A DNA stretch of 62,047 nucleotides, taken from contig JAPLCX010000013.1 in the NCBI GenBank assembly GCA_026392035.1, forward strand, positions 1 through 62,047, in the 5' to 3' direction. The notes under the pieces were generated by a model. It was given only the letters and a program-made list of their open reading frames with translations, was not told the DNA's origin and ran no database searches. The DNA comes from Candidatus Auribacterota bacterium. Its GTDB lineage: Bacteria; Auribacterota; Tritonobacteria; UBA1439. Of this stretch, positions 16,513 to 52,550 are shown piece after piece. The translations under genes and the position numbers were made by a program. Every line of letters begins with the position of its first letter. Within the stretch, counting starts at the first letter, position 1.

Positions 16513-16684
16513 ACGGAGGCACGGAGAACACGGAGGGGATTTAAGATAGCGACCACTGGATACACTGAAATTCACAGAAAACATACCATCCCTGTTTCAG
16601 TGCCTTCAGTGCCCTCAGTGGTTATTCCCAATAATCGAGGCGCTTACTCCGTGCCCCTGCCTGCCGGCAGGCAGGTCCGTGGTG
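16513..16684. repeat. Compound nested array: CACGGAG outer words, CACTGA inner words, 20-base palindrome
   Basis: The left outer arm (CACCACGGAGGCACGGAG) is the exact reverse complement of the right outer arm once the palindrome at 16656-16675 is removed. Inside lies a second pair: CCACTGG, CACTGA and CACAGA words on the left, TCAGTG words ending CTCAGTGG on the right. A very similar compound occurs at 38101-38284. Confidence 0.85.
16656..16675. repeat. 20-base perfect palindrome CCTGCCTGCCGGCAGGCAGG (copy 1)
   Basis: It interrupts the right outer arm of the compound array: removing these 20 bases restores CTCCGTGCCTCCGTGGTG, which matches the left arm perfectly. Identical copies lie at 38252-38271 and 52513-52532. 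Confidence 0.9.
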
Positions 16685-18870: not shown

Positions 18871-19006
18871 ATCCACGGATTGCGCGGATTGCAACCACAA
18901 CAAAAAGTTGAAAGCATACGGTTTAAAGCGTAACTGCATCCTTTTGCTTCCAGCTTTAAACTTTAGGCTGTTTTTGCATCCGTGAAAATCAGTGTAATCC
19001 GTGGAT
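18871..19006. repeat. Nested array: GGATT outer words, CTTTAAA inner words
   Basis: ATCCACGGAT at 18871-18880 is perfectly complementary to ATCCGTGGAT ending at 19006, each followed inward by further GGATT/AATCC words. The loop contains a second pair, AAAGTTGAAAG with TTTAAAG on the left and CTTTAAACTTT on the right. The array fills the spacer between the epimerase and the UDP-sugar dehydrogenase. Confidence 0.8.
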
Positions 19007-26725: not shown

Positions 26726-26739
26726 CTTATCTCCATCGT

Positions 26740-26820
26740 CGCGAAAGGGAGAAAGGGCGAATCGGCGAATCGGCGATGAAAAAGGCAATCGCCGATTCTC
26801 CGCCTCGCCGTCTCGCCGGC
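26740..26820. repeat. CGGCGAATC / TCGCCG word array
   Basis: Left words GGCGAATCGGCGA are mirrored by right words TCGCCGATTCTCCGCCTCGCCG, in the spacer between oppA and oppB genes. The same word family occurs at 28438-28513 and 31447-31521. Confidence 0.8.
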
Positions 26821-26832
26821 TCAGCGTTACGA

Positions 26833-36888: not shown

Positions 36889-36916
36889 ATTGCACCCCCC
36901 CCTTTTAATTCTCTTT

Positions 36917-37243
36917 TAACCGCGGATTGGGCGGATTATGCGGATTAAAATATATCCTTAGTTATTTTGGCTCAACCCGGAATTTTGTGAATAATGCCCA
37001 CTTCTCATAATGCATAACAGATTACTCTGGAACAAGATACTACTAGTCAGATCTCTACATATACCCTCTCCCCCTGGAGGGAGAGGGCAGGGTGAGGGGG
37101 TTTCTATAAAAACCCGTTTCTCACCCCCACCTTTCCTCCCCCTTCACAGGGGAAGGGATGTGCCGCATGCTCTTGGGCTCACAAAATTCTGGGTTAAGCC
37201 GTTATTTTATCTTATCCGTGCAATCCGTGTAATCCGCGGTTAA
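36917..37243. repeat. Triple nested array (Russian-doll element)
   Basis: This 365-base gene-free stretch holds three array families inside one another. Outer arms are AACCGCGGATT/GGATT words at 36917-36952 and AATCCG words at 37211-37243. Middle arms (CTCAACCCGGAATTTTGTGA at 36971-36990 and its near-complement in 37175-37197) lie inside them. The innermost pair is CCCTCTCC and GGGTGAGGGG words with the opposite CTCACCCCC at 37063-37160. Each inner element sits close to the middle of the next. Confidence 0.85.
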
Positions 37244-38100: not shown

Positions 38101-38284
38101 TCACAGATGAACACAGATACACACAGATAAAAAATTTTACTTTGTTTTTAACCACTGAAGTCACTGAAAAATTTTATTCTTTTTCAGTGTATTCAGCGCC
38201 CTCAGTGGTTATTCCCGACAATTTATACGCTTTCTTCGTGTCCTCCGTGCCCCTGCCTGCCGGCAGGCAGGTCCGTGGTGATAA
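38101..38284. repeat. Compound array with CACAGAT, CACTGA and CCGTGG words and palindrome copy 2
   Basis: The left outer arm has CACAGATG words; the inner pair (CCACTGAAGTCACTG on the left, TTCAGTG and CCTCAGTGG on the right) encloses an AT-rich loop; the right outer arm is CTCCGTG words interrupted by the 20-base palindrome at 38252-38271. The inner right arm through the palindrome is nearly the same as in the array at 16513-16684. Confidence 0.85.
38252..38271. repeat. 20-base perfect palindrome (copy 2)
   Basis: It is identical to copies at 16656 and 52513, and sits between CTCCGTGC-C and TCCGTGGTG exactly as copy 1 does. Confidence 0.9.
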
Positions 38285-47847: not shown

Positions 47848-47935
47848 ATCCACGGATGACACGGATTAACACTGATTCGAAAACCGCAAAAATCCCTTCC
47901 AATAAAATCCGTGAGGATCAGTGAAATCCGTGGAT
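47848..47935. repeat. ATCCACGGAT / ATCCGTGGAT array upstream of the arg promoter
   Basis: ATCCACGGATGACACGGATT with AACACTGATT on the left is mirrored by AATCCGTGAGGATCAGTG and AAATCCGTGGAT on the right; the ends are perfect complements. The words are those of the outer arms at 18871-19006. Confidence 0.85.
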
Positions 47936-50612: not shown

Positions 50613-50701
50613 GTGGAGAATGGCTAGAGAGGCATAGCGGTGCTGAACGAGCTACGCAAAGCTAGGGACACTTTACATATCTTCTTGAAATCGGGGAAAT
50701 C

Positions 50702-51663
50702 GGGGTCGCACCACGTTATCTCTTTCATTTGGAGATAGATATGTATTTTTTGACCCGATAATAAGGCCTTAGAAGCTGTTTTTTGGTCAATTTCTAGCCT
50801 CTAAGGAATATAATAGTCTGCGCAATAAGGAGTTCACCATGCCACGCGCCTACAGATATTTCCTGCCAGGGTATGTGTACCACATCACCCACCGGTGTCA
50901 TAACTGCGCTTTTCTTCTCCGTTTCGCAAAAGATCGTGACGCATACCAAGAGTGGCTTCGAAAGGGTGCCTTGAGATATAGGGTTTCTATATTTGGTTAC
51001 TGTATAACCTGCAACCATGTTCATTTAATTCTGTTCCAACATAATGATGGCGATTTAAGTAAATTCATGCAACTCATTGAAGGTCGCACGGCGCAGCAAT
51101 ATAATCTAAGAAAAGGGAGAAAAGGGGCATTCTGGCAAGACCGGTACCACTGTACAATTATAGACAGCGGTCTTCATTTGTGGAACTGCCTGCAATATGT
51201 AGATCTCAATATGGTGCGCGCAGGTAGAGTAAAGAATCCAGAACAATGGAAATGGTGCGGCTATGGCGAGTTTATAGGCTTGCGGAAAAGATATCGACTC
51301 CTGGATATGGAAACGATTCTTGATAAAATGGGTTATGATGATCTGGAAAGAACAAGAAAGCACTACAAAGAAGAAATGGAAAGACGCTTATCTTCAGGAG
51401 TATTCGAGCGCGATCCATTATGGACCGAAAGCCTCGCGGTAGGTGAGAAGTTATTCGTAGACTCATTGCAAAAACAATTTCCCCGCGTTAGGCTCTACAT
51501 AAATGAAGAAAAAACCGCAGATGGCAAAAACGAATGGAGTATCAGGGAAGCACCGACAGCTTACAGTCACTTTTGGGGGGTAAAAAGCGCTCCTAAGGCC
51601 ATAAAAAAGGCATAAAATATACGTAACATTTTAGCTGGGAAAGAGATAACGTGGTGCGACCCC
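50702..51663 (+). mobile_element. REP-type (Y1/IS200-like) transposase element with 25-base terminal inverted repeats
   Basis: A perfect 25-base inverted repeat bounds the unit: it begins GGGGTCGCACC at 50702 and reads to TCTCTTTC at 50726, and its reverse complement lies at 51639-51663. The transposase gene is the only cargo. The right end is 31 bases from tRNA-Leu. Perfect long terminal repeats are unusual for RAYT genes, which normally lie among REP hairpins. Confidence 0.85.
50839..51615 (+). CDS. REP-associated tyrosine transposase (RAYT, Y1_Tnp family)
   Basis: The 258-residue protein has the HUH motif NHVHLIL near 60-66 and the catalytic Tyr in LQYVDLNMVRAG near 120-131, with FWQDRYHCTIID between, as in TnpA-REP proteins. 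It nicks single-stranded DNA at folded hairpins. AAGGAG precedes the ATG. A C-terminal domain of about 100 residues (from ERTRKHYKEEMERRL) is longer than in the shortest members. GC content is lower than that of the surroundings, which suggests recent arrival. Confidence 0.9.
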   Translation: MPRAYRYFLPGYVYHITHRCHNCAFLLRFAKDRDAYQEWLRKGALRYRVSIFGYCITCNHVHLILFQHNDGDLSKFMQLIEGRTAQQYNLRKGRKGAFWQDRYHCTIIDSGLHLWNCLQYVDLNMVRAGRVKNPEQWKWCGYGEFIGLRKRYRLLDMETILDKMGYDDLERTRKHYKEEMERRLSSGVFERDPLWTESLAVGEKLFVDSLQKQFPRVRLYINEEKTADGKNEWSIREAPTAYSHFWGVKSAPKAIKKA

Positions 51664-51694
51664 AACTTCAACTTCAGGTTTCGGCTCGCGAGTT

Positions 51695-52500: not shown

Positions 52501-52550
52501 CCTACCCTCTCCCCTGCCTGCCGGCAGGCAGGCACAAGGGGAGAGGGAAA
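52495..52550. repeat. CCCTCTCCC array between coaC and coaB
   Basis: CCCCCTCACCCTACCCTCTCC is mirrored by GGGGAGAGGG with the 20-base palindrome at the tip. It lies in the joint between CoaC and CoaB coding regions. Words match the inner array at 37063-37160. Confidence 0.8.
52513..52532. repeat. 20-base perfect palindrome (copy 3)
   Basis: It is identical to the copies at 16656 and 38252, but here occupies the loop of a CCCTCTCC/GGGAGAGGG hairpin. Confidence 0.9.

Follow-up and report, generated by a model that had tools for sequence, protein, structure and literature searches.

Several insertion sequences are known to use dispersed bacterial palindromes (REP) as targets, including IS1397, which inserts into the palindromic units of E. 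coli, and ISPpu9/10 (Tobes and Pareja 2006, PMC1525189). Small palindromes also occur as inverted pairs, such as the GTAG- and CGTC-tagged REP dimers and the REPINs (PMC3733652, PMC3116915), and REP dimers have been reported inside other palindromes (PMC3733652). A further dispersed structure is the intrastrand triplex motif (TM, or TMECO in E. coli), in which a hairpin CCCTCTCC is accompanied by GGGTGAGGGG (Holder et al. 2015, PMC4666352); in E. coli K-12 it also occurs as A/B pairs in inverted orientation, separated by a short spacer. The locus described here shares features with each of these, and its middle part resembles the insertion sequences and MITEs of the ISL3 family.

The window, that is, the whole analysed stretch of 62,047 nt, corresponds to contig C13 in the draft genome (G000; 2.8 Mb) of a Candidatus Auribacterota bacterium. 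On the minus strand the gene order is lysA, dapF, dapA and then an ORF resembling dapB, and the gap between dapF and dapA is occupied by a composite of three nested inverted pairs (Table 1). All three pairs named in the first-pass annotation of this DNA are present, and the inner motif also has an inverted partner that was absent from that description. The main comparison genome was G001, and the nearest relatives compared belong to other genera of the same family; genome-wide counts come from pattern searches, and the anatomy of elements from the copies that were read. We are confident that a 232-bp MITE carrying a pair of triplex motifs has been inserted into the loop of the outer hairpin, and that the composite as a whole represents successive mobile DNA.

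Table 1. Features of the dapF-dapA composite and positions of the 20-nt palindrome, in window coordinates
Feature	Position	Strand	Description and basis
Outer left arm	36916..36945	+	three CGGATT words (TTAACCGCGGATTGGGCGGATTATGCGGAT); inverted repeat
Outer loop, left part	36946..36968	.	A+T-rich, ends with a target site copy; from sequence
Target-site duplication GTTATTTT, left copy	36961..36968	.	8/8 identical to right copy
MITE	36969..37200	+	232 bp, non-coding, ISL3-type by sequence; full-length G001 copies with the same ends
MITE left terminal inverted repeat GGCTCAACCCGGAATTTTGTGA	36969..36990	+	inverted repeat; pattern counts
First triplex motif (predicted)	37064..37099	+	hairpin CCCTCTCC/GGAGAGGG plus GGGTGAGGGG; near-identical to E. 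coli TMECO motifs (PMC4666352)
Spacer of triplex pair	37100..37119	.	unoccupied in the window; another word array in other copies
Second triplex motif (predicted), inverted	37120..37157	-	sequence and alignment
MITE right terminal inverted repeat	37179..37200	-	inverted repeat
Target-site duplication GTTATTTT, right copy	37201..37208	.	8/8 identical to left copy
Outer loop, right part	37209..37213	.	from sequence
Outer right arm	37214..37243	-	three ATCCG words; inverted repeat
20-nt palindrome CCTGCCTGCCGGCAGGCAGG	16656-16675, 38252-38271, 52513-52532		

The middle pair had been taken for a word array, an assignment that we revise. Judged by its sequence it is an ISL3-type MITE, because it has terminal inverted repeats of 22 nt (91% complementary), because GTTATTTT is duplicated exactly at its borders, and because sister ends surround an ISL3 transposase gene in the same genome and resembling ends are found on an ISL3 element of another genome (G028). 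The transposase gene (contig C54; PF01610, E 5.7e-73, 424 aa, stop-free) lies between the ends GGTTCTCTTCC...TGTGTGGGT, with ATTTATAT duplicated on both sides, while the element of G028 has the ends GGCT..ATCCGGATTT, which are close to those of the window MITE, and a duplicated ACATAAAT. Patterns for the window ends matched 14 times in the own genome and 56 times in G001, compared to no match for a reversed control pattern, so that a chance origin of this pair can be dismissed; the sister ends gave 26 and 142 matches, respectively. Among 51 elements from both genomes for which both ends were read, the flanking octamers agree at 8/8 positions in 20 and at 7/8 in a further 20, a level that is reached by about 3% of permuted flanks as against 40/51 real elements. 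These duplications are 83% A+T, compared to 49% for the non-coding 8-mers of the window. A second copy of the MITE in the own genome (contig C98) is flanked by duplicated TAAAATAG, and G001 has three full-length copies, which are 74-75% identical to the window element across its positions 1-232; at two of these the duplication is perfect.

The 232-bp element contains no ORF of at least 100 aa and hence no transposase gene of its own; the C54 transposase or a relative would have moved it. A full-length transposon with exactly the ends of the window MITE was found neither in G000 or G001 nor in a PF01610 profile search of 44 genomes of the phylum, and G001 has no PF01610 match despite its 56 window-type ends. 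The element is thus like ISL3-family members in its 22-24 bp ends (GGYTC...TTTTGTG), its A+T-rich 8-bp duplications, the occurrence of non-coding derivatives of about 94-400 bp and the presence of a PF01610 gene with matching sister ends in the own genome; it is unlike them in having a triplex-motif pair as its core, and no autonomous element that would be its exact parent turned up in the genomes searched.

This inner pair corresponds to the known intrastrand triplex motif, and triplex formation is predicted: as in Table 1 of PMC4666352, the hairpin is followed by GGGTGAGGGG in mirror symmetry. The pair differs from its E. coli counterparts in lying between transposon ends, which were not seen in ISL3-like form when E. 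coli triplex pairs were inspected by eye, and in that its spacer hosts further arrays in other copies. It is present in the C98 copy and in all three full-length copies of G001, hence in MITEs at other loci of the own genome as well as in a different genus; the simplest view is that the MITE brought it along, in which case it would predate the insertion at this locus. Triplex pairs without a MITE also exist, for example on contig C85 (L009) of the own genome. In a 161-bp MITE copy of G001 the pair is replaced by one short hairpin, which may represent either a loss of the pair or an earlier state. In 13 MITE copies another array, often with the ends ACTACAG and CTGTAGT, lies inside the spacer of the pair, and some MITEs carry the inverted pair GTAGGGGTTCGATTTATCGAACCC, which has the layout of a GTAG-tagged REP dimer (PMC3733652). 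The finding of the widespread CCCTCTCC motif inside a mobile element points to one possible route by which it spreads within genomes.

At a locus of G001 (L204, G001:C177:8421-9810), a MITE built of about five layers, among them a GTCATTGCGAG...CTCGCAATGAC repeat within an array within the triplex pair, has landed directly next to an outer hairpin that is itself intact and empty.

The outer arms are 30 nt each, 80% complementary, and consist of three words with a period of 9. When the insert and one copy of GTTATTTT are removed, a loop of 28 nt remains, and joining of the flanks yields the probable sequence of the locus before insertion. With up to 2 mismatches allowed, the arm was matched 24 times in the own genome and 315 times in G001, and the reversed control pattern not once, so this family is no product of chance either. 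The fetched loci include 37 distinct arm pairs. Empty hairpins, of which 11 distinct ones were found in G001, have 27 + 11-12 + 27 nt, with loops that are recurrently close to TTGCATTGTGTA or TCTTGTTTGTA; other pairs enclose longer contents, such as a CACTGA array (L404), an AATGACA array (L343) or a CTTTAAACTTT-type array, and a MITE is held by the pair in the window and by that at L209. The arms start with TTAACCGCGG; the foot of the hairpin carries neither GTAG nor CGTC as a tag, and no dedicated transposase was connected with the arrays, so that in both respects these CGGAT arrays are unlike the tagged REP dimers and REPINs, to which some of the MITEs come closer by bearing GTAG-tagged pairs. 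A literature search for the repeat words, with most subscription journals outside its coverage, found no paper describing such arrays.

Of the possible histories of this locus, we favour the following. The gap between dapF and dapA would first have been home to a dispersed hairpin repeat, with three CGGATT-type words per arm and a short loop. The non-autonomous MITE would then have been inserted into its A+T-rich loop by an ISL3-family transposase supplied in trans, which cut the strands 8 bp apart and so left GTTATTTT on both sides; as the MITE presumably already bore the inverted triplex pair, a single event most likely brought in two of the layers. Successive non-coding mobile DNA may thus accumulate in one permissive intergenic spacer. 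The alternative of a single composite, inherited as a unit without separate insertions, could appeal to the several copies in which inner and middle layers travel together, and yet it is practically untenable: outer copies without the middle and middle copies without the outer exist, and because of these a fixed unit of outer and middle layers is already refuted, while the inner pair occurs without both (on C85 and in E. coli) and the ends of the middle element carry an exact duplication. Nesting by insertion, as originally proposed, is therefore upheld, including a junction of the MITE that is exact to the base. The idea that every inner element is the next insertion holds for the MITE in the outer hairpin but probably not for the triplex pair.

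A further proposal was that new elements enter preferentially at the loop or tip of a stem already present. On a mechanistic version of this, the mobile element would recognise the loop or a cruciform tip, much as IS1397 does with the palindromic units of E. coli, and each layer would land centrally. The midpoints of MITE and outer hairpin are indeed 5 nt apart, arrays associated with the triplex pair always lie within its spacer in the 13 occupied copies, and five IS families are known to include members that target REP (PMC1525189). However, the inner pair lies 26 nt off the centre of the 232-bp MITE, and the sites of MITE insertion do not show the expected bias. When the complementarity of the 80 nt on each side was scored, 5/51 MITE sites reached a score of at least 20, as against 8.7% of A+T-rich non-coding positions, and 3/51 (5.9%) a score of at least 23, as against 6.4%. 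This baseline was taken from one G000 window with the MITE excluded whereas most of the elements are from G001, and for this reason a small preference may still exist. MITEs also insert just outside intact hairpins, as at L204, and the 20-nt palindrome considered below inserts within arms, at R^GR, rather than at tips. We consider tip-directed insertion improbable, and insertion always at the tip does not occur. Central placement would instead result from insertion into A+T-rich non-coding DNA, loops included; a fixed central position recurs only in the triplex-pair spacer inside MITEs, where shared ancestry of the copies could explain it. In this the locus differs from REP-targeting insertion sequences, with which it shares a transposable element within a dispersed palindrome of intergenic DNA: those are specific for palindromes, whereas the only preference seen here is for A+T-rich non-coding DNA. 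A large hairpin kept as a functional RNA or terminator to regulate the dap operon is also quite unlikely. The transcribed strand of the composite folds far better than shuffled sequences (z -7.8), but nested palindromes do so by construction, and an Rfam search of the window matched two tRNAs only and no family at the composite. In addition, the orthologous gap of G001 (L032:1310-1500) contains an inverted GGCGA word array unrelated to the composite, and the gaps of G002, G004 and G005 have no part of the composite. Because the orthologous gap lacks it in all four relatives examined, we take the composite to be mobile DNA that is specific to this lineage and sits in a permissive spacer, rather than a conserved dap regulator, and it probably has no function at this locus. 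The GGCGA array of the G001 gap is of the same kind as one at 26735-26830 of the window.

With copies that have and copies that lack a given insert, the sequence by itself suffices to place each layer in a relative chronology. Such copies also distinguish what is accounted for by the target rule of a transposon, an A+T-rich site of 8 bp, from what would call for a new mechanism, namely the entry of a 20-nt palindrome into repeat words, precisely and without duplication. Two further loci described as two-layered agree with that description, 16513-16684 being CACGGAG around CACTGA and 18871-19006 being ATCCACGGAT around a CTTTAAACTTT array. The third, 38101-38284, does so only in part, as its outer left words (CACAGAT) and outer right words (CACGGAG) belong to different families.

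The 20-nt perfect palindrome CCTGCCTGCCGGCAGGCAGG occurs at about 75 places in the own genome. No duplication was seen at the 47 sites that were read, most of which lie inside words of other arrays; a word of another family is held by the flanks of 38/47, compared to 10.6% of positions outside long ORFs. The next base is G in 43/47 sites on the chosen strand, although the choice of strand itself favours G. It is conceivable, if somewhat doubtful, that the word-array hairpins and CCTGCCTGCCGGCAGGCAGG together form a minimal kind of mobile DNA, which creates no target duplication and mostly enters other repeats, with the result that the intergenic spacers of this lineage grow in layers. If this were true, one would expect four or five nested layers as a rule, and an age could be assigned to each of them in turn. 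By description, not by sequence, this is reminiscent of the small dispersed repeats of cyanobacteria, which Elhai et al. in 2008 reportedly described as mobile units of about 20 nt inside other repeats.

A gene with a Y1 (RAYT-type) transposase domain is located at 50875-51201, between 31-nt inverted repeats (50696-50726 and 51639-51669). The own genome has 11 Y1 matches, any of which might move small palindromes. The ATCCACGGAT host array has an empty copy with a short loop at 47849-47934 and a filled copy at 18872-19005, with the CTTTAAACTTT-type array between its arms. Elsewhere in the own genome, L131 (C30) and L134 (C47) have a whole composite in common, with CACGGAG arms around three inner arrays, in which the connectors are conserved while the words differ; L133 seems to carry the same inner set reversed.
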